Assembly: GCF_013344475.1 (NCBI RefSeq)
Contig: NZ_JABUOU010000002.1
Span: 310,001 to 374,000 of the forward strand
Origin: Martelella limonii
GTDB lineage: Bacteria; Pseudomonadota; Alphaproteobacteria; Rhizobiales; Rhizobiaceae
Direction: 5' to 3'
DNA length: 64,000 nucleotides
Below the pieces are notes generated by a model that did not search any database, was not told the origin of the DNA, and worked only from the letters and a program-made list of their open reading frames with translations. Every line of letters starts with the position of its first letter. Within the stretch, counting starts at the first letter, position 1. Made by a program: the position numbers and the translations under genes. Below, in pieces: positions 2,729-12,447 of the stretch.

Positions 2729-3472
2729 ATGCTTTCGCACGTGCCGTCAGAGCCTGCTTGTCACGCGGATGCCAATGGCGATATGGTCGCCGCCATGCGC
2801 GTTCTTGTAATCGAAGATGACCTCGAGGCTGCGGCCTACCTGACCAAGGCTTTTCGCGAGTCCGGGATTTCCTGCGAACATGCGGGCGATGGCGAAAGCG
2901 GTTTGTTCATGGCGAGCGAGAACGAGTATGACGTTTTGATCGTCGACCGCATGTTGCCGCGCCGCGACGGACTTTCGGTGATTTCGGCGCTGCGCGCCCG
3001 CTCGATCAACACGCCTGTCCTGATTCTCTCGGCTCTGGGGCAGGTGGATGACAGGGTCACGGGCCTGAGGGCCGGAGGTGACGACTATTTGCCGAAGCCC
3101 TATGCATTCAGTGAGCTTCTTGCACGGGTGGAAGTGTTGGGTCGGCGCAAGGGTGCGCCTGATCAGGATGTGCTCTACAAGGTCGGCGATCTTGAGCTTG
3201 ATCGCCTGTCGCATGAAGTGCGCCGAGCCGGCCGCGAGATCACGCTTCAGCCGCGCGAATACCGGCTGCTTGAATATCTGATGAAAAATGCCGGCCAGGT
3301 GGTGACGCGAACCATGCTTCTGGAAAATGTCTGGGATTATCACTTCGATCCACAGACGAATGTCATCGACGTCCACGTGTCGAGGCTGCGCGCGAAGATC
3401 GAGAAGGACTTCGACAAGCCGCTGCTCAAGACCATCCGCGGTTCCGGCTACATGATCAAGCACGATGGTTAG
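2729..3472 (+). CDS. OmpR-type two-component response regulator
   Basis: The receiver domain begins at MRVLVIEDD (residue 23 of the form given), with the acidic pocket E29, D30, D31 and phosphoacceptor D73 in VLIVDRMLP. A winged-helix DNA-binding domain follows (about residues 150-245), including the typical NVIDVHVSRLRAKIE recognition region. The chosen start has a strong GAGGAG (2716-2721) seven bases upstream. A start at 2795 would give exactly the usual family N-terminus but has no good ribosome site. The partner kinase begins 10 bases after the stop. The DNA targets are not evident; the position beside degP suggests envelope-related control, which is inference. Confidence 0.92.
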   Translation: MLSHVPSEPACHADANGDMVAAMRVLVIEDDLEAAAYLTKAFRESGISCEHAGDGESGLFMASENEYDVLIVDRMLPRRDGLSVISALRARSINTPVLILSALGQVDDRVTGLRAGGDDYLPKPYAFSELLARVEVLGRRKGAPDQDVLYKVGDLELDRLSHEVRRAGREITLQPREYRLLEYLMKNAGQVVTRTMLLENVWDYHFDPQTNVIDVHVSRLRAKIEKDFDKPLLKTIRGSGYMIKHDG

Positions 3473-3482
3473 CGTTTAGCGG

Positions 3483-4907
3483 ATGAAGGGACGGCTGAGG
3501 CTTCTTTTGAAATCGACGGCGGTTCGGCTTTCAGCGGTCTATATCCTGCTGTTCGGCCTCTGCGCGGCGGTCATGGTTTTCTATGTTACCACCGTCTCGG
3601 AGAAACTCGTTGAGCGCCAGATGGAACAGTCGCTCCATCACGAGATCGCGCAGCTTGACCAGGCTTTCGAAAAGGGCGGGATCAGGCTGCTGTTTAACAT
3701 GATCGAGCGGCGCGCCCGCCAGCCCGGCGCCAACCTCTATGTCATCGCCAGCCCGCAAGGCGAAATCCTGGCAAGCAATGTCGCCTCGCTGCAGCCTGGA
3801 ATACTCGAAGAAACCGGCTGGCTGGACAAGCCGTTTCGCTATGAGGGCTTTGCCGAAACCAACGGCGGCGACCGCTTCAGCCATGCCATCGGTTATGTGA
3901 TCGAACTCGACAATGGCATGAAGCTGCTGATCGGACGGGATCTTGGCGACCCTCAACGGCTCCATAAGATCGTCCGTCAGGCTTTGCTGCTTGCGCTTTT
4001 GATCATGGGCGTGGGGGCGCTCGTGATCTGGTTTGCCATCGGTCGCAATGCACTCAACCGCATCGACCGCATGTCTGCTGCCAGTAGCAAGATCATGGCC
4101 GGCGATCTGTCTCAGCGCCTGCCGGTTGCCGGTTCCGGCGACGAATTCGACCGCCTGTCCAATTCGCTCAATCTCATGCTCGATCGCATCGTCAGGCTGA
4201 ACGAGGGATTGCGTCAGGTCTCCGACAATATCGCGCACGATCTCAAGACGCCGCTCACGCGCCTCCGCAACAAGGCTGCCGATGCTGCTGCTGCCGAGGA
4301 TCCGGAAGAGCGTCGCGCATCGCTTGAGGGCATCATTGCTGAATCCGATCAGCTGATCCGCACCTTCAATGCGCTGCTGATGATCTCGCGGGTCGAGGCG
4401 GGCGCCGTGGCGGCGGAAATGTCCCCACTCAATCTGTCTGCCATTGTCGAGGACAGCGCGGAACTTTACGGACCTGTGGCAGAGGAGGCGGGCATGGTTC
4501 TCGATGTCGAGAACGAACCGGACCTTTTCGTCCACGGCAATCGCGAACTGATCGGCCAGGCGCTTTTCAACCTCCTCGACAACGCCATCAAATATGCTTC
4601 CGACAAGGAGGACCAACCGCGCATCTTTCTTTCGCTCAAACGCGAGGGAAGCGACGTGGTGGTCACGGTCGCCGACAATGGACCAGGCATTCCCGCCAAC
4701 CGGATGGATGACGTGAAACAGCGGTTTTTCCGGCTGGATGAAAGCCGTTCGAAGCCCGGAACCGGGCTTGGCCTTTCCATGGTCGAGGCCGTTACCGATA
4801 TGCATGGCGGCACTTTCGTCCTCGCCGAGGCGGAGAACCATGTTCCCGGATACAGCGGCCTTGCCGCCCTTCTTCGTTTTCCGCTCGCCAGCAACCGCAA
4901 GCGTTGA
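3483..4907 (+). CDS. Membrane sensor histidine kinase, partner of the upstream regulator
   Basis: This 474-residue protein has two transmembrane helices (about 15-37 and 163-185) bracketing a periplasmic sensor of roughly 125 residues. A HAMP linker follows, then a HisKA domain with phosphoacceptor H252 in NIAHDLKTPL. The ATPase domain shows the N-box (NLLDNAIKYA), the G1 box (DNGPGIP) and the G2 box (GTGLGLS), so catalysis looks intact. It would autophosphorylate and transfer phosphate to the regulator encoded 10 bases upstream. The signal sensed cannot be read from sequence. It sits between degP and glnE, as in other rhizobial genomes. Confidence 0.93.
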   Translation: MKGRLRLLLKSTAVRLSAVYILLFGLCAAVMVFYVTTVSEKLVERQMEQSLHHEIAQLDQAFEKGGIRLLFNMIERRARQPGANLYVIASPQGEILASNVASLQPGILEETGWLDKPFRYEGFAETNGGDRFSHAIGYVIELDNGMKLLIGRDLGDPQRLHKIVRQALLLALLIMGVGALVIWFAIGRNALNRIDRMSAASSKIMAGDLSQRLPVAGSGDEFDRLSNSLNLMLDRIVRLNEGLRQVSDNIAHDLKTPLTRLRNKAADAAAAEDPEERRASLEGIIAESDQLIRTFNALLMISRVEAGAVAAEMSPLNLSAIVEDSAELYGPVAEEAGMVLDVENEPDLFVHGNRELIGQALFNLLDNAIKYASDKEDQPRIFLSLKREGSDVVVTVADNGPGIPANRMDDVKQRFFRLDESRSKPGTGLGLSMVEAVTDMHGGTFVLAEAENHVPGYSGLAALLRFPLASNRKR

Positions 4908-4970
4908 GCAGCTTTTGCTGCCGCCTCTTCGATGCTAAGCCGGAGAAAACAACATGCGGTGGAGGAAAAG

Positions 4971-7928
4971 ATGGAGGAGATCAGCAGGCGACTGGCTGAC
5001 ATAGGCGAAGGGCGGATTTCTGCTCTCGGCGATGCCGAGGCCGCAGGCGCCAGTCGGGATATTGCGGATGCCGTGACCGCTCACAACCTTCCGGCCATAT
5101 TAACCGATGACATGGCGCCGCTGGCCGGCTTCCTGGCGGCAGCATTCACCTTGTCGCCCTTCCTCCATGATACCTTCCGCTCTCATCCCGCCTTGCTCGC
5201 GGATGTCGAAAAGCCGGTTTTGCCGGAGATCGAGACCGAGATCGAAAGGGCGCGCACCGCCTGGATAACGGAAAACGGGCCCGGCCGTGACGATGTGATC
5301 ATGAAGCGGCTTCGCGATGCCAAGCGCCGGATTGCCTTTCTGGCGGGGCTTGCCGACCTTGGCGGCATCCTGTCCGCCGAGACCATCACCAAGCTGCTCA
5401 GCCGTTTTGCAGGCGCTGCGGTTGCCGCCACGCTTGATCACCTTCTTGCCTCCGCGGCGAGCGAGGGCAAGATCCGGCTCGTCTCGCAGGAGCATCCTTC
5501 CGAGCGTTCCGGAATCGTCGTGCTTGGCATGGGCAAGCTCGGCGCCTGCGAGCTCAACTATTCCTCCGACATCGACATTGTCGTGTTCTTCGATGCGCAG
5601 GCAGAGATCATTACCGATCCCGACGATGCGCGCGAACTCTTCCCGCGGCTCATGCGCCGGCTGGTGCGTATCCTTCAGGAGCGGACCGGCGATGGCTATG
5701 TCTTCAGGACAGATTTGCGGCTGAGGCCCGATCCTGGATCCACGGCGCTCGCCATCCCGGTCGAAGCCGCCCTGATCTATTACGAAAGCCGCGGACAGAA
5801 CTGGGAACGTGCAGCCTACATCAAGGCCCGGCCGATAGCCGGTGACATTGCCGCAGGCGAGGCGTTTCTGTCCGAAATGGTGCCCTTCATTTTCCGCAAA
5901 TACCTGGATTATGCGGCGATTTCCGACATTCACGCGATCAAGCGACAGATCCATGCCCACAAGGGCTTCGGGCTGGTGGCCGTTCATGGCCATAACGTCA
6001 AGCTCGGCCGTGGCGGCATTCGCGAAATCGAGTTCTTTGCCCAGACCCAGCAGCTGATTGCCGGCGGACGCATGCCGCACCTGCGCTGCCGTCGCACGGT
6101 GGATGCGCTCGACGCGCTTTACCAGGCGCAATGGATCGATCAGGTTACCGCCGAGGAGCTGAAATCGGCCTACTGGTTCCTGCGCAATGTGGAACATCGC
6201 ATCCAGATGGTGCGGGACGAACAGACCCACACGCTGCCGGACGACGACGGCGAACTGCTGCGGATCGCACGGATGAGCGGATATCAAAGCGTCGAGGACT
6301 TCGCCGCAGCGCTCGTCAAAACACTCAAGACGGTCGAGAAACGTTATGCGCGCCTGTTCGAGCGCGAGCTGACGCTTTCGGGTGAAACCGGCAATCTGGT
6401 GTTTACCGGCGAAGACGATGATCCAGGCACGCTCGAGACACTTTCCAAGCTCGGCTTCGAGCGCCCCGCCGATATCGCCCGTATCATCCGCACCTGGCAT
6501 TACGGTCGTTACCGCGCCACTCAGAGCACCAAGGCCAGGCAGCGCCTGACAGAAATCATGCCCGATCTTCTCGCCGCTTTCGGCGCCAGCCGGCGGGCGG
6601 ATGAGGCGCTTTTGCGCTTCGACCGTTTTCTTGCCGGTCTGCCGGCCGGTATTCAGCTGTTTTCGCTTCTGAGAAGCAATCCCAACCTTCTGCTTCTGTT
6701 CGTCGAGATCATGTCGGCGGCTCCGCGCCTTGCGGAGATCATTGCAGCGCGGGCCCATATCGTCGATGGCATGCTTGATCCGGCGCTGATGACGGAAATC
6801 CCGACGCGGGAGTACCTCAAGCAGCGCCTCGATGCCTTCCTGAGCGGTGCCGAACTCTACGAGGAAAGGCTCGACAGGCTTCGGATATTCGCGGCCGAAC
6901 AGCGGTTTCTCATCGGTATCCGCCTGCTGACCGGCTCGATTGGCGGCTTCGTTGCGGGCAGGGCGCTGACCCTTCTTGCAACGCTCGTCATCGACGAGGC
7001 GCTGGAGGGCGTGGTTTCCGAAATCGCGCAGGCTCATGGCAAGCTGTCCGGCCAGCGCGTTTGCGTATTGGCCATGGGCAAGCTCGGCAGCGCCGAACTC
7101 ACCGCCGGGTCCGATGTCGATGTGATCGTGCTCTACGATTGCGACGACCCCCACGGTTCTTCCGATGGCCAGAGGTCGCTTGATGCGCCGCGCTATTTCG
7201 CGCGCGTCACGCAGCGTCTTGTGGCAGCGCTGAGCGCACCGACGGCGGAGGGCGTGCTTTACGAGGTCGACATGCGCCTCCGGCCTTCCGGAAATGCGGG
7301 GCCGCTTGCCACGCGGCTTGCGGCCTTCGAGAAGTATCAGACCAATGATGCCTGGACGTGGGAGCATATGGCGCTATCGCGGGCCCATCCGCTGTGCGGC
7401 GACGCATCGCTGATGGACGATGTCGGCGGTGTGATCGACCGGGCGCTTGTAAATCCGCGCGATCGCACCGTGCTCGCGCGCGAGATTGCGGAGATGAGGG
7501 CGCGCATCGAGCGCGACAAGCCTGCAAAAAGCATATGGGATCTGAAGCTGATACCTGGTGGTCTGGTCGATATCGAGTTTCTCGCCCAATTCTGCCATCT
7601 CGCATCGGGACAACCGCGTGAAAAGTGCGGCGGCAGGGAGACCATGACAACGGATGATGTTCTGGCCCGGTTCGGACCGGATCTGCTGGGGCCGGGCGAG
7701 TTGGAGACATGCCGGCGGGCGCTTGCGCTTTACACCGATATTGCCCAGCTGACACGGGCCTGCCTGACCATCGGGTTCGAGCCGGGATCTGCGCCTGCAG
7801 GCCTGCTCGATCGCCTCTGCAAGCTTGCGGACTGCCCTGACATCGAAACCCTTGAAGCCCTGATTGCCGACACGGCGAGTGGCGTTCGTTCGATATTCCA
7901 GACGCTGCTGCCGGTTGAGGGCGAATAG
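4971..7928 (+). CDS. glnE: Bifunctional glutamine synthetase adenylyltransferase/deadenylase
   Basis: GlnE covalently adenylylates glutamine synthetase and removes the AMP in response to PII, linking nitrogen status to ammonium assimilation. The 985-residue protein has two nucleotidyltransferase modules, each opening with a GMGKLG/AMGKLG motif (about residues 186 and 701). The catalytic aspartates follow in SDIDIVVFFD and SDVDVIVLYD. The first is the deadenylylase half, the second the adenylylase half. I chose the ATG at 4971 because GGAGG lies five bases upstream; an in-frame ATG at 4932 lacks such a site. Length matches the family. The gene converges on the PAS gene, with three bases between the stops. 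Confidence 0.95.
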   Translation: MEEISRRLADIGEGRISALGDAEAAGASRDIADAVTAHNLPAILTDDMAPLAGFLAAAFTLSPFLHDTFRSHPALLADVEKPVLPEIETEIERARTAWITENGPGRDDVIMKRLRDAKRRIAFLAGLADLGGILSAETITKLLSRFAGAAVAATLDHLLASAASEGKIRLVSQEHPSERSGIVVLGMGKLGACELNYSSDIDIVVFFDAQAEIITDPDDARELFPRLMRRLVRILQERTGDGYVFRTDLRLRPDPGSTALAIPVEAALIYYESRGQNWERAAYIKARPIAGDIAAGEAFLSEMVPFIFRKYLDYAAISDIHAIKRQIHAHKGFGLVAVHGHNVKLGRGGIREIEFFAQTQQLIAGGRMPHLRCRRTVDALDALYQAQWIDQVTAEELKSAYWFLRNVEHRIQMVRDEQTHTLPDDDGELLRIARMSGYQSVEDFAAALVKTLKTVEKRYARLFERELTLSGETGNLVFTGEDDDPGTLETLSKLGFERPADIARIIRTWHYGRYRATQSTKARQRLTEIMPDLLAAFGASRRADEALLRFDRFLAGLPAGIQLFSLLRSNPNLLLLFVEIMSAAPRLAEIIAARAHIVDGMLDPALMTEIPTREYLKQRLDAFLSGAELYEERLDRLRIFAAEQRFLIGIRLLTGSIGGFVAGRALTLLATLVIDEALEGVVSEIAQAHGKLSGQRVCVLAMGKLGSAELTAGSDVDVIVLYDCDDPHGSSDGQRSLDAPRYFARVTQRLVAALSAPTAEGVLYEVDMRLRPSGNAGPLATRLAAFEKYQTNDAWTWEHMALSRAHPLCGDASLMDDVGGVIDRALVNPRDRTVLAREIAEMRARIERDKPAKSIWDLKLIPGGLVDIEFLAQFCHLASGQPREKCGGRETMTTDDVLARFGPDLLGPGELETCRRALALYTDIAQLTRACLTIGFEPGSAPAGLLDRLCKLADCPDIETLEALIADTASGVRSIFQTLLPVEGE

Positions 7929-7931
7929 CCC

Positions 7932-9575
7932 TCAGGCGACTGTCTTGCGAATGATGGTGCCCTGGCGCGGCGCGTCCTTCTCTCCGGCCGGCAAGAGCGC
8001 GTTTTGATGCTCTTCGACCGGTGCAAAGCCGAGCGCGCGGTGCAGGGCTGCGCATTTCAGCTCGAGCCGCCGGCGCGCGGCCGAGAGTGCAGCGATCTTC
8101 TCGCGCAGCCGAGCCTGTTCGCCCTGCAGGTGGCACTCGTGGGTCTTGAAGGGGGTGATGTCCGTGCTGACCGTCAGCAGCAAACCGCTGCCGAACTGGT
8201 TTTCGCTGACCGACTGCCACTGGCCGAGCGGTGTCCGGATTTCGCTTGCAACGGCATCGTCATTCCAGGTGCGGCGCACCACGATGGCATCGTCTTCCGT
8301 CAGGCTGTCGCGCCGTCCGCCCTCGCCAAGACCGTAGGCGGAGGTAAAGCTGGCATTGGCGAGTTCCAGACGGCCATCCTTGTTCCAGACTGCCAGCCCA
8401 TGCGGCATGGCGTCGAATGCCGCCTGATAAAGGCTTGCCCGCCGGGTTGCCGTCTCGATCTCGCGTCGGCTTTCGCTCGCCGTGCGAATTGCAATGCCGC
8501 TGACAGTGATGCGGTCACCGGTGAAGCCGGCATGGGCGCGGATATCGACGCGCATATACTGGCCGTCGCGCTTGCGGATGCGGGCGCTGGCCTCGATCAA
8601 TCCGGTCTCGGCGGGATGAAGCCGCCGGAAGAAGCCGGCGCGGTCATCGGGATGCACGAGCGCCAGCAACTGGCGAAGGCTGAGCTGCCGCGGTGCTGCG
8701 CCGAAGCCGAGCGAGGATGAAGAAGAGCCGTCCAGCAGGGCAAACCTTCCGCGCGGATCGAATGACCAGAGGCCGGTTTCACCGTTGGCGAGCATCGCCT
8801 CGCGGCGGGCTTCGGCCTCGGCCATCACGTCGGCTGTCGCATCGGCGCGGTTAAGCTGGGCGTAATAGGCATAGACCACCACCAGCAGTAGAAGCGCCAT
8901 CGCCGCGAACAGCGTCACGTTGAGGTTGATCTCGGCCCGCCACAGCGCATTCATCTTCTTCATGGAATGGAGCGCGATTACCATGCCGCCTTCATTGCCG
9001 GCCAGATGCATCGACACCAGATACGGAACGCCGTCGATCTGCGTTTCGACCACGCCGTTGGTGGAGGGGTGATGCCGTGCGGAGGTCAGCTGCGGGAAGA
9101 CCGAGGCGAGCGACCGGCCGGTCAGCGTCGCGCTGTCGCCGGTTGCGGCCAGCACGGCGCCCTGCGTGTCGATGACGACAAGATCGGTATCCGCGCCTGC
9201 CGCTGCGAGTGTCACAAGCCGATCGCGCGTCGCCGTCGCGCTTTCCGGGGAAAACAGCTGCGGCTCATCTTCCAGCGCCGCAAGGCCCAGCGCGGCGGTC
9301 AACTCCGTGGCCTGCCGGACGGCATCTTCCATCCGGGCGTGGGTCGACATCAGCGAAAGGCCGCGCGCTGCTGCAACGCTGATGAGGAAGGCTATGATCA
9401 GGAGCGGGATGGACTTCTTGAGGACCCTTTCGATCATCGGTCTGTTGATGCTGGCGAAGCCATCAAGGCCGGTGAAACCCGCCTGATGTGCCGCTGCGAC
9501 AGCCTGTTGCGCGGTTGCTTGAGCGCGCAACTTCCCGTTGACTGCGGGATGATCCCGCATGTCCGATCTGTTCAT
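7932..9575 (-). CDS. Membrane PAS-domain protein without a kinase domain, in the PleC-like position
   Basis: This 547-residue protein has a transmembrane helix at about 51-70, a periplasmic sensor of about 135 residues, a second helix at about 208-228 and two PAS-like domains (about 240-360 and 370-480). It then has a short coiled coil (LREKIAALSAARRRLE) and a polar tail. At the point where related sensors enter a HisKA domain the reading frame ends, four bases from the glnE stop, so no kinase can follow. In Sinorhizobium the gene beside glnE is, to my recollection, the PleC-like kinase. A GAGGGA precedes the start. Whether the loss is ancestral or recent cannot be told here. Confidence 0.75.
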   Translation of the reverse strand: MNRSDMRDHPAVNGKLRAQATAQQAVAAAHQAGFTGLDGFASINRPMIERVLKKSIPLLIIAFLISVAAARGLSLMSTHARMEDAVRQATELTAALGLAALEDEPQLFSPESATATRDRLVTLAAAGADTDLVVIDTQGAVLAATGDSATLTGRSLASVFPQLTSARHHPSTNGVVETQIDGVPYLVSMHLAGNEGGMVIALHSMKKMNALWRAEINLNVTLFAAMALLLLVVVYAYYAQLNRADATADVMAEAEARREAMLANGETGLWSFDPRGRFALLDGSSSSSLGFGAAPRQLSLRQLLALVHPDDRAGFFRRLHPAETGLIEASARIRKRDGQYMRVDIRAHAGFTGDRITVSGIAIRTASESRREIETATRRASLYQAAFDAMPHGLAVWNKDGRLELANASFTSAYGLGEGGRRDSLTEDDAIVVRRTWNDDAVASEIRTPLGQWQSVSENQFGSGLLLTVSTDITPFKTHECHLQGEQARLREKIAALSAARRRLELKCAALHRALGFAPVEEHQNALLPAGEKDAPRQGTIIRKTVA

Positions 9576-9801: not shown

Positions 9802-12447
9802 TCAGCTTTTCAACATGCGATCAACGATATCCCTCAGGTTGCGAGACAGGTCTTCGTGCTCCGCTATGCGTTCAATCTCAGCGCGGGCCAGTTTGCGGCG
9901 GCCGGGCTCAAGCGCCTCGAATGAGCGCATCGCCGTCATCATCCGCGCGGTCAGCGTGGCGTTGCGCGGGTCGGTGGCGAGGATGAAGTTTGCGAAGAAC
10001 CGGAACCCCGCGCCATCGGGGCGGTTGAACCCTGTCGGGTTGCCCGTCGCGAAGGCGCCAACGAGGGCGCGCACGCGGTTCGGATTGCCTTCGTCGAAGC
10101 CCGGATCGCCCATCAACTCGGCGACACGGTCAAGCGTCTTTGCGCCGGGTATCGTCGCCTGCACGGTGAACCACTTGTCGAGCACCAGTGGCTCGCCATC
10201 GAAGCGCTTGCGGAAGTTCGAAAGCGCCTCCACGGCTTCCGTGCTGTCGGGGAACTGATGGGCCAGGATGCGAAGTGCTGCGATCATGTCCGTCATGTTG
10301 GTCGCTGATCGATAGGCGTCGTCCGCAGCCTTCGGAGATTGATCGGCAACGGTCAGATAGGCCAGCGCCGCGTTGCGCAGCGCGCGGCGGCCGGCACTGT
10401 CCGCGTCCGGGCTGAAGGGGCCATCTTCCCGCAAGCTTTCCACAAGTCGCTGGAAGGTCGCGCGACCCGATGATGCGATCGCGGAGAACACCGCGTTGCG
10501 GGCGAGGTGAATGGCCTCGGGATCGACGTCGCTCGCGATCTCCCGGCCGATATCGAGCTCGCTTGGCAGGGTCAGGGCAAGAGCGCGGAACGCCGGTTCC
10601 AGGCGCTCGTCTTCTGCCGTGGCGATCAGGATATCGCTGAGTTCGGAATCGGTGTCGACCGGGTCTCCGGCCTGAATGGCGGCCGTGGCACGGCTCAGCA
10701 CCTCCAGCGCCAAGGCGTTGATCGTGTCCCATCTGGCCACCAGATCGCTTTCCGCACCGGCGATCCGCAGCCGGTTCTCGCGCGATTGATCGAAGCGCAC
10801 CCTGACCGGCGCCGAAAAGTCGCGGTTGAGCGAGATCGCAGGTGCTGCGCCGATCCCTTCGAACACGAAGGTCTGCTCCGTATCGGTCAGGTGCAGCACA
10901 TCGCCCGTGCGCTCGCCGCCGCTTGACGATGACGGTTCCATGTCATCGCCATTCGGGCTGATGAGGCCGACGCGCAGCGGAATGTGGAGCGGCTTCTTTA
11001 CCCGCTCGCCAGGCGTCGGCGGCGTGGTCTGGGAAAGCGTCAGCGACAGCCGTCCCGAAGCTTCGTCATAGGCGCTGCTTGCGGCAATGAGAGGCGTTCC
11101 GGCCTGATGATACCATAGCGAGAAGTGCGAAAGATCGCGGCCCGTCGCATCCTCGAAGCACGTCAGATAGTCCTCGATCGTCACCGCGCCGCCGTCATGG
11201 CGTTCGAAGAACAGGTCGAGCCCCTTGCGGAAACCCTCTTCGCCCAGCACTGTCGCGATCATGCGCGAGACTTCGGAGCCCTTTTCGTAAACGGTCGTGG
11301 TGTAGAAATTGTCGATCTCGAGATACTGGGTCGGCCGCACCGGATGGGCAAGCGGTCCGCCATCCTCGGGAAATTGATGCGCGCGCAGAAACTTCACCTC
11401 GTCCACCCTGACCACCGGCCTGGAACGCTGGTCGGCGGAAAATTCGTGCTCGCGGAAAACCGTCAGGCCTTCTTTCAGGCTCAGCTGGAACCAGTCGCGG
11501 CAGGTAATCCTGTTTCCGGTCCAGTTGTGGAAATATTCGTGTGCCACGACGGCTTCGATGCGGGCATAGTCGTCATCGGTCGCGGTCTCGGGATCGGCGA
11601 GGATGAGCCGGTCGTTGAAGATGTTGAGGCCCTTGTTCTCCATCGCGCCCATGTTGAAATCGGATACGGCGACAATCATGAAGATATCGAGGTCGTATTC
11701 GCGCCCGAAGCGCTCTTCGTCCCATTTCATCGACCGCTTCAGCGAGTCCATCGCATAGCCGGCGCGCCCGGCCTTGCCGTGTTCGACATAGATGCGCAAC
11801 GTCACATCGCGTCCGGACATCGTGGTGAAATGATCCTCGATCATCGCCAGATCGCCGGCCACCAGCGCAAACAGGTAGGAGGGCTTGCGGAAGGGATCGT
11901 CCCACTTCGCCATGTGCCGTCCGTCGCCCAGATCGCGCTCTTCCACGAGATTTCCATTGGACAGGAGCAGCGGGTTGCGCGCCTTGTCGGCGATGATTGT
12001 CACGCTGTAGACGGCAAGCACGTCGGGCCGGTCGTAGAAATAGGTGATCCGGCGAAAACCTTCGGCCTCGCATTGGGTCGAGTAGATGCCGTTGGTGCGG
12101 TAGAGCCCCAGAAGCTGGGTATTGGCCGTCGGATTGATATGCGTCCTGATCGTGAGCGTGAATTCGTCTTCGGCCGGAAGGTCGAGGATTTTCAGGTGAT
12201 CGGAGGTGCACTCGTAGCGCTCCGGCAGAAGTGGCCTGCCGTCCAGCGCAAGCCCCGCGAGTTGCAGACCGTCGCCGACAAGCTCGAGTGGGGCATCTGC
12301 GCCTGCACCCGGGCGGCGCTTCATCCTGATTTCGCTTGCAACCGTCGTCAGCGTCTCACCCAGCTCGAAAGCCAGATCCACGGTTTCGATGATGAAATCG
12401 GTGGGACGGTAATCTTTCAGATAGACGGTTCGGTCTTTGCGCATCAT
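9802..12447 (-). CDS. pepN: Aminopeptidase N, M1 zinc metallopeptidase
   Basis: PepN trims N-terminal residues from peptides in the cytoplasm. The 881-residue protein carries the exopeptidase motif GAMEN at 267-271. The zinc site is HEYFH at 303-307 with the third ligand E326 in SLKEGLTVF. The order and length fit the gammaproteobacterial-type M1 aminopeptidase: an N-terminal beta domain, the catalytic domain, a small beta domain and a C-terminal helical domain. The gene is divergent from the DMT transporter that starts at 12611, with a shared 163-base intergenic region. Nothing suggests truncation. Confidence 0.95.
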   Translation of the reverse strand: MMRKDRTVYLKDYRPTDFIIETVDLAFELGETLTTVASEIRMKRRPGAGADAPLELVGDGLQLAGLALDGRPLLPERYECTSDHLKILDLPAEDEFTLTIRTHINPTANTQLLGLYRTNGIYSTQCEAEGFRRITYFYDRPDVLAVYSVTIIADKARNPLLLSNGNLVEERDLGDGRHMAKWDDPFRKPSYLFALVAGDLAMIEDHFTTMSGRDVTLRIYVEHGKAGRAGYAMDSLKRSMKWDEERFGREYDLDIFMIVAVSDFNMGAMENKGLNIFNDRLILADPETATDDDYARIEAVVAHEYFHNWTGNRITCRDWFQLSLKEGLTVFREHEFSADQRSRPVVRVDEVKFLRAHQFPEDGGPLAHPVRPTQYLEIDNFYTTTVYEKGSEVSRMIATVLGEEGFRKGLDLFFERHDGGAVTIEDYLTCFEDATGRDLSHFSLWYHQAGTPLIAASSAYDEASGRLSLTLSQTTPPTPGERVKKPLHIPLRVGLISPNGDDMEPSSSSGGERTGDVLHLTDTEQTFVFEGIGAAPAISLNRDFSAPVRVRFDQSRENRLRIAGAESDLVARWDTINALALEVLSRATAAIQAGDPVDTDSELSDILIATAEDERLEPAFRALALTLPSELDIGREIASDVDPEAIHLARNAVFSAIASSGRATFQRLVESLREDGPFSPDADSAGRRALRNAALAYLTVADQSPKAADDAYRSATNMTDMIAALRILAHQFPDSTEAVEALSNFRKRFDGEPLVLDKWFTVQATIPGAKTLDRVAELMGDPGFDEGNPNRVRALVGAFATGNPTGFNRPDGAGFRFFANFILATDPRNATLTARMMTAMRSFEALEPGRRKLARAEIERIAEHEDLSRNLRDIVDRMLKS

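Follow-up and report, generated by a model that had tools for sequence, protein, structure and literature searches.

A PleC orthologue apparently reduced to its sensor half beside glnE in Martelella, with putatively non-enzymatic PdhS1/CbrA and PleD in the same genus

The window analysed here, a stretch of 64,000 nucleotides of the Martelella limonii genome (4.54 Mb, 40 contigs, completeness 100), lies within contig C12 of that assembly (G000). On its reverse strand it carries an open reading frame of 547 aa with an ATG start, situated between a gene for an M1-family aminopeptidase and the convergent glnE (Table 1). The product of the latter was confirmed as GlnE with Pfam, and the two stop codons that face each other are 3 bp apart (7929-7931), exactly as the original prediction had described. 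Just upstream of glnE are a response regulator and a HAMP sensor kinase (2729-3472 and 3483-4907), and ahead of this pair is a DegP-like protease (1125-2663).

Table 1. Features at the pleC locus; positions are those of the window.
Feature	Position	Strand	Basis or remark
Kinase-less PleC orthologue, 547 aa	7932..9575	-	Open reading frame; homology to canonical PleC
Membrane anchor, periplasmic sensor and second membrane helix, approximately residues 51-241	8853..9425	-	dN/dS; low-confidence model
First PAS domain, residues ~254-375	8451..8816	-	Weak Pfam PAS_3 match; alignment to canonical PleC
Second PAS domain, residues ~380-478	8142..8438	-	Pfam PAS_4/PAS
Predicted helix, residues 479-515	8031..8141	-	Aligned with the pre-DHp coiled coil of canonical PleC; model
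Variable linker and conserved C-terminal tail	7935..8030	-	Occupies the place expected for DHp and HATPase
glnE, convergent neighbour	4932..7928	+	Pfam; the two stops are 3 bp apart
M1-family aminopeptidase gene, upstream of pleC	9802..12447	-	Pfam; neighbour in other loci

Pfam gave weak PAS matches in the 547-aa protein and, at E <= 0.01, no HisKA or HATPase_c. There was no match in NCBIfam at E <= 1e-5, and a sequence search of the PDB returned two weak matches (E = 0.01 and 0.04), both covering the first PAS region. The description from which we started, of a protein that keeps its membrane sensor and PAS domains and ends where a HisKA domain would be expected, is borne out by these searches. 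The structure model of the protein (two sequences, mean pLDDT 48) is good for rough helix and strand limits only. The last nine codons encode GTIIRKTVA, and two hydrophobic residues followed by R-R or R-K were recognised by eye in the tail of PleC from 13 of 13 Martelella genomes. Judged by this shared motif, the C-terminus is not a bare truncation: it carries a conserved tail.

Over residues ~49-511, the window protein has 27-33% identity (E from 4e-30 to 1e-64) to all 17 full-length canonical PleC proteins compared, and its sensor-PAS-PAS region is homologous to that of full-length PleC. A homologue of the M1 peptidase adjoins pleC at 13 of 13 loci of the genus and at 16 of the 17 loci of other genera (no match at L047). 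On the other side of pleC, glnE, which we take to be its neighbour in Sinorhizobium as well, is present at 12 of the 13 Martelella loci. It adjoins pleC at 6 of the 17 other-genus loci, read with flanks of ~0.7 kb, and lies ~1.8 kb away in G029. The exception within the genus is G012, where the gene order around pleC is broken: no glnE match was found in the 16 kb around the gene (L087), though the M1 peptidase is present. By sequence and neighbours, the window protein is an orthologue of PleC, and its locus is that of the PleC-type kinase in other genera of the family. The PleC-like identity proposed for it has therefore held up, on the identity to all 17 full-length proteins and on the shared M1 peptidase neighbour. 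An objection raised beforehand, that close homologues at this locus might all be equally short and unrelated to PleC, was right about the length (13/13 in the genus) and wrong about the kinship, given the 27-33% identity to PleC. A single named relative came up, in Martelella mediterranea IOP_24, with 70% identity. The name PleC is a putative one for the other-genus yardstick genes, given by elimination among the four PdhS-type kinases of Agrobacterium tumefaciens, for which sizes and membrane topology (PMC3577659) and locus tags (PMC7003649) are reported; no PleC model was among the best NCBIfam matches to a canonical PleC. With PleC of Caulobacter, Sinorhizobium (SMc02369) and Agrobacterium (Atu0982), the window protein would share a homologous membrane sensor and two PAS domains. 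Unlike them, PleC has no CA domain in any of the 13 Martelella genomes and no DHp domain in the clade of the window genome.

Each of the 13 Martelella genomes has one short copy of PleC, of 547 aa in G000, G001, G005 and G006 and of 612-630 aa in the other nine. Outside the genus, 41 of 48 genomes gave a PleC match at E <= 0.001, and in each of the 37 that matched at E <= 1e-13 the open frame measures 774-945 aa. The 17 of these long proteins that were read all contain HELRTPLNA and the invariant N, G1 and G2 residues, and Pfam found HisKA and HATPase_c in 4 of 4 other-genus PleC scanned. A profile of 17 PleC kinase domains (E <= 1e-95) detected the canonical domain in 279 of 296 genomes of the family, representing 97 of 99 genera, and in none of the six Martelella sampled. 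The other misses of this profile were six genomes of genus g21, three genomes of 0.9-1.1 Mb (G018, G201, G310), and two single genomes (G149, G227) in genera with other positives. Those of g21 likely reflect divergence rather than loss, because one of its members (G032) has a PleC frame of 810 aa. Checked in this way, the short form occurs throughout Martelella and, within this sample, is confined to it. A kinase domain hidden behind a frameshift or an assembly error, against which the original prediction had warned, is unlikely: the same 547-aa end recurs in 4 of the 13 genomes, the other nine also end early at 612-630 aa, and the adjacent glnE leaves no space for such a domain in the window.

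The extent of the reduction differs within the genus. HATPase_c was absent from 7 of 7 further Martelella PleC scanned with Pfam, and the six scanned proteins with a remnant of the DHp domain reached 15-24 bits for HisKA, below the cut-off of 26.9. This remnant, without HATPase, occurs in nine genomes, and in each of the nine the phospho-accepting His or the Glu next to it has gone. The His is replaced by Ala in seven of them (boxes PAEIRTAL, SAEIRTSL and SADLRTSL); G004 and G007 keep the His and have Ala in place of the Glu. The Thr at His+4 is kept in eight of the nine (Glu in G004), and the Pro that follows it is lost in all nine (Ala, Ser or Glu). The alignment shows no DHp domain at all in the four genomes of the window clade, which is one group in the PdhS2 tree (100/99). 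Since the ATP-binding (CA) domain is, by the same comparisons, absent from PleC in 13 of 13 Martelella, the loss of the kinase most simply predates the genus. The loss of catalysis in Martelella PleC is strongly supported on sequence grounds, and the window protein, as a retained histidine-kinase relative without catalysis, fits the description of a pseudo-histidine kinase.

In the window genome, the profile of 17 PleC kinase domains gave five matches at E <= 1e-40, one of which is of the PdhS type (G000:C12:380869-381570), and a single one of the 22 HisKA matches at E <= 0.001 has a PdhS-like box by eye. With the PleC profile, each of the 13 Martelella genomes has one kinase at 217-245 bits, and other long kinases follow at 157-189 bits; six genomes of other genera have PleC at 410-420 bits and further PdhS-type kinases. 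Three lines of evidence bear on the identity of the sole PdhS-type kinase of Martelella: 1) it groups with PdhS2 (95/89 support) in a midpoint-drawn tree that carries a warning of long branches among kinases outside the PdhS family; 2) the best five outside-genus matches of its N-terminus were PdhS2 for each of the 13 queries; and 3) in 5 of 5 Martelella genomes examined it sits among the genes that flank pdhS2 in two other genera. All three identify the remaining kinase as the PdhS2 orthologue. It replaced DivJ, which had been considered for this role from its position near pleC, once these three comparisons had been made. The H, N and G1 boxes of PdhS2 are kept in 13 of 13 genomes, with Asp instead of Glu beside the His, and the G2 box was seen in 5 of 5 proteins read. 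About 100 residues follow the HATPase domain in the five Martelella PdhS2 read (~100 versus ~25 in the two read from other genera), at the loci L161 (G000:C12, ~380-382 kb), L154, L156, L164 and L166. This C-terminal extension could be a dock for the dead kinases.

PleC is not the only member of the pathway to have degenerated in Martelella, a fact out of reach of the original prediction, which had just the window to go on. PdhS1/CbrA is present with an intact reading frame in 13 of 13 genomes, and its His position is occupied by Tyr in nine, Leu in two and His in two (G003, G012). Both Asn of the N box and the G2 box are lost in all 13, and the G1 motif in 12, with DxGxG kept in G003. HATPase_c and HisKA were absent or below the Pfam cut-offs in 4 of 4 proteins tested (76 and 63 bits in a canonical PdhS1), and the NCBIfam PdhS model gave 501 bits for the two PdhS1 tested versus 990 for a canonical one from another genus. 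By its motifs, PdhS1/CbrA of Martelella is a full-length pseudokinase. A canonical PleD query at E <= 1e-40 had matches in 43 of the 48 genomes outside the genus and in none of the 13 Martelella. A plain loss of PleD was considered and rejected, the gene that adjoins divK in all 13 being a degenerate PleD. Its product has REC-REC-GGDEF homology over its length (23-25% identity in 6 of 6 aligned). The NCBIfam PleD model (NF007135) is its best model in 6 of 6, with 60-86 bits (cut-off 474; canonical 678), and its best solved relative in a PDB search is Caulobacter PleD (E = 1.8e-18; next other protein at 6e-5). In 13 of 13 genomes the acidic pair of the receiver has become GG and the Lys has become Leu, GGEEF is lost save for the F, Arg or Gln takes the place of the metal-binding Asp, and a deletion removes the substrate Asn-Asp. 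The phospho-acceptor Asp had also been thought lost, an idea we rejected, since an Asp (Glu in G003) still aligns at that site. From these substitutions, the divK-linked PleD is a pseudo-receiver/pseudo-cyclase. In the window genome divK and its pleD neighbour overlap by 8 bp (L142:4347-6186); in G029 divK and pleD lie 15 bp apart (L121).

Outside the genus, G017 and G053 gave no PleD match at E <= 1e-40 and keep a long PleC frame, so the loss of PleD alone does not bring that of PleC. An N-terminal DivJ profile had no match in 12 of the 13 Martelella and one linker-only match (E = 0.007) in the remaining genome. This profile is of limited sensitivity (it found nothing in 4 of 24 other genomes of the family and only matches at E > 1e-5 in five more), and the DivJ-like kinase of G031 reached a mere 148 bits with the PleC kinase profile; DivJ is therefore best described as not detected in Martelella, a strongly altered DivJ being possible. 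DivK is kept, with 64-72% identity to the query versus 75-98% in the other family genomes having it, and its receiver motifs were intact by eye in the seven proteins read. The CckA candidate of the window genome, named from a motif, has HisKA, HATPase_c and receiver domains above the Pfam cut-offs. The same genome encodes a long PAS-HisKA-HATPase-like protein (L193; G000:C4:41500-46000), a possible DivL, albeit with His at the acceptor position.

The genes that have lost their catalytic motifs seem nonetheless to be constrained. Simple Nei-Gojobori estimates of dN/dS over nine pairs, with dS from 0.03 to ~1.1, were 0.12-0.30 for pleC, 0.12-0.37 for pdhS1 and 0.05-0.10 for the degenerate pleD; the corresponding values were 0-0.10 for divK and 0.14-0.26 for the intact pdhS2. 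When pleC was divided into regions for three pairs of the window clade, the estimate was 0.07-0.14 for the membrane-periplasmic part and 0.22-0.77 for the linker and tail. The DHp remnant gave 0.14-0.22 (four pairs). Values of 0.05-0.37 imply that the dead pleC, pdhS1 and pleD are still under selection.

The explanation that we favour, and consider probable, is that the control of DivK has come to rest on PdhS2, and that PleC, PdhS1 and PleD live on in a non-enzymatic role, as sensors or scaffolds. PleC would have been reduced to a sensor, with the sensor itself, the PAS domains, the coiled coil and the tail common to all 13 genomes. Both the phosphorylation and the dephosphorylation of DivK would now depend on PdhS2 as the one PdhS-type enzyme, since DivJ was not detected. 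PleC would keep sensing and pass its signal on by contact, with the PAS domains, the coiled coil and the conserved tail as the parts that bind partners. Candidate partners, borrowed by analogy from Caulobacter, might be a PodJ-like polar scaffold, PdhS2, or DivL/CckA. Caulobacter PleC is described as having two outputs, being a phosphatase on DivK and briefly a kinase on PleD, and its PAS domains as binding the scaffold PodJ and setting polar localisation (PMC10790692). The phosphatase activity of PdhS2 is reported to be dominant in A. tumefaciens, where PdhS2 complements with H271A and not with T275A (PMC7003649). In Martelella, the kinase step from PleC to PleD has lost both its donor and its target, a pattern in keeping with joint loss. 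Because the Thr at His+4 is kept in eight of the nine genomes with a DHp remnant, PleC may there have first become a phosphatase-only regulator of DivK. The window clade has no DHp, and the selected function of PleC in it would therefore be non-enzymatic. Of the two options offered by the original prediction, signalling by protein contact is thus, in our inference, a better reading than a relocated kinase half. The more specific claim that the whole branch of PleC, PdhS1/CbrA and PleD turned non-enzymatic in the ancestor of the genus and is still under selection, with PdhS2 as the sole kinase and phosphatase of DivK, we put at slightly below an even chance. Some residues speak against a non-enzymatic reading: the DxGxG of PdhS1 in G003, its His in G003 and G012, and the Asp or Glu aligned at the acceptor site of PleD. 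Life without PleC is not unheard of, since pleC is reported to be dispensable in A. tumefaciens (PMC3577659).

Could PleC still take part in catalysis? It might be the sensor subunit of a mixed complex, whose coiled coils or DHp remnants pair with PdhS2 and leave catalysis to it. PdhS2 being the only intact PdhS-type kinase found, and having in Martelella a long C-terminal extension unlike the two other-genus PdhS2 read, this arrangement deserves serious thought, but it is on the whole unlikely, as PdhS2 carries a membrane domain of its own. It might also be that only the kinase activity was lost and that the DHp domain still dephosphorylates DivK~P, PleC thereby keeping its main job as an enzyme. 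In HisKA proteins, the Glu is described as serving the kinase reaction and the Thr or Asn the phosphatase reaction, with the Thr/Asn required for phosphatase activity and the Glu not required for it in four such proteins (PMC3510030). The pattern in Martelella, with the Thr at His+4 in eight of the nine DHp-bearing genomes and the His or Glu lost in all nine, agrees with such a division of labour, as does the dN/dS of 0.14-0.22 in the remnant (four pairs). Yet the same work describes the His as helpful, if not required, and the Pro as important for the phosphatase: the equivalent Pro-to-Ala change in CrdS cost much of this activity and His-to-Ala part of it (PMC3510030). The loss of this Pro in nine of nine remnants (Ala, Ser, Glu) lowers the odds of a phosphatase-only PleC, which we judge rather improbable. 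The Thr itself is replaced by Glu in G004, PleC lacks the CA domain in every one of the 13 genomes, and the sections cited of a survey of pseudo-histidine kinases argue against phosphatase activity as their general function (PMC12632262). This mechanism is impossible for the window protein and the three relatives nearest to it, none of which has a DHp.

Two further accounts were weighed. If pleC, pdhS1 and pleD were decaying relics heading for loss and without present function, lost catalytic motifs and a clade with a deleted DHp domain would be expected, as observed; but their reading frames are intact in 13 of 13 genomes, the losses are common to the whole genus, and dN/dS stays at 0.05-0.37 over nine pairs, with the constraint on pleD nearly that on divK. 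Such a decay is very improbable. Scarcely credible is a kinase half that was separated from PleC and now works in trans, encoded at another locus. Split two-component proteins do exist in general, but no other PleC-type DHp-CA module was found genome-wide at E <= 1e-40, and just one of the 22 HisKA matches (E <= 0.001) has a PdhS-like box by eye. The kinase in question is PdhS2, which other genera also have, at a locus of its own, so that a kinase half moved elsewhere, as the original prediction had allowed, is not supported. We retain as probable the reading in which PleC, PdhS1 and PleD serve as non-enzymatic sensors or scaffolds beside PdhS2.

Several known systems resemble this proposed state in part. 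Caulobacter DivL is a pseudokinase of the same pathway, a histidine-kinase relative that works without kinase activity as we propose for PleC; it is reported to keep the DHp and CA folds as a docking site for DivK~P, whereas the window PleC has neither (PMC4211667). DivL without a kinase domain is described in Rhodobacterales (PMC2877005; PMC9430884), with the sensor and PAS kept and the kinase absent, like the window PleC. According to these accounts, DivK is absent there too, while Martelella keeps DivK and one PdhS kinase. A receiver-like inhibitor of CckA is also on record (PMC9430884). The H271A variant of A. tumefaciens PdhS2 combines a His-to-Ala change with a retained Thr, as do seven of the nine DHp-bearing Martelella PleC, but it was made in the laboratory, in a different protein whose CA domain is intact (PMC7003649). 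Pseudo-receivers and pseudo-histidine kinases at large lack catalytic residues and keep their place in the network, like the Martelella proteins. They are treated singly in the sections cited of PMC12632262; in Martelella three members of one pathway would be concerned within one genus. As far as we found in the parts of the literature cited, pseudokinases and kinase-less sensors of this pathway were previously known one at a time, as in the DivL examples. The loss of catalysis by three members of the branch in one genus under continued selection is, as far as found in open-licence papers, new. Among the papers found there, none appears, judged by title and abstract, to treat this pathway in Martelella.

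The requirement for these proteins is reported to vary among relatives of Martelella: PleC is essential in Sinorhizobium meliloti (PMC4254191, PMC11500502), where DivJ and CbrA are synthetically lethal (PMC11500502), and in A. tumefaciens pleC can be deleted and divJ cannot (PMC3577659). Martelella gets by with catalytically dead PleC and CbrA and with no DivJ detected, and so offers a natural experiment that separates the enzyme roles of PleC and CbrA from their sensor or scaffold roles, and two stages of the reduction of PleC, with the DHp domain present and with it absent, are preserved in sequenced species. That all three genes are nevertheless well maintained suggests that an enzyme, once dead, can continue purely as a sensor or scaffold. 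If the whole branch did turn non-enzymatic in the ancestor of the genus, with PdhS2 left as the sole enzyme for DivK, this would show that polar cell-fate information can travel by protein contacts among dead enzymes.
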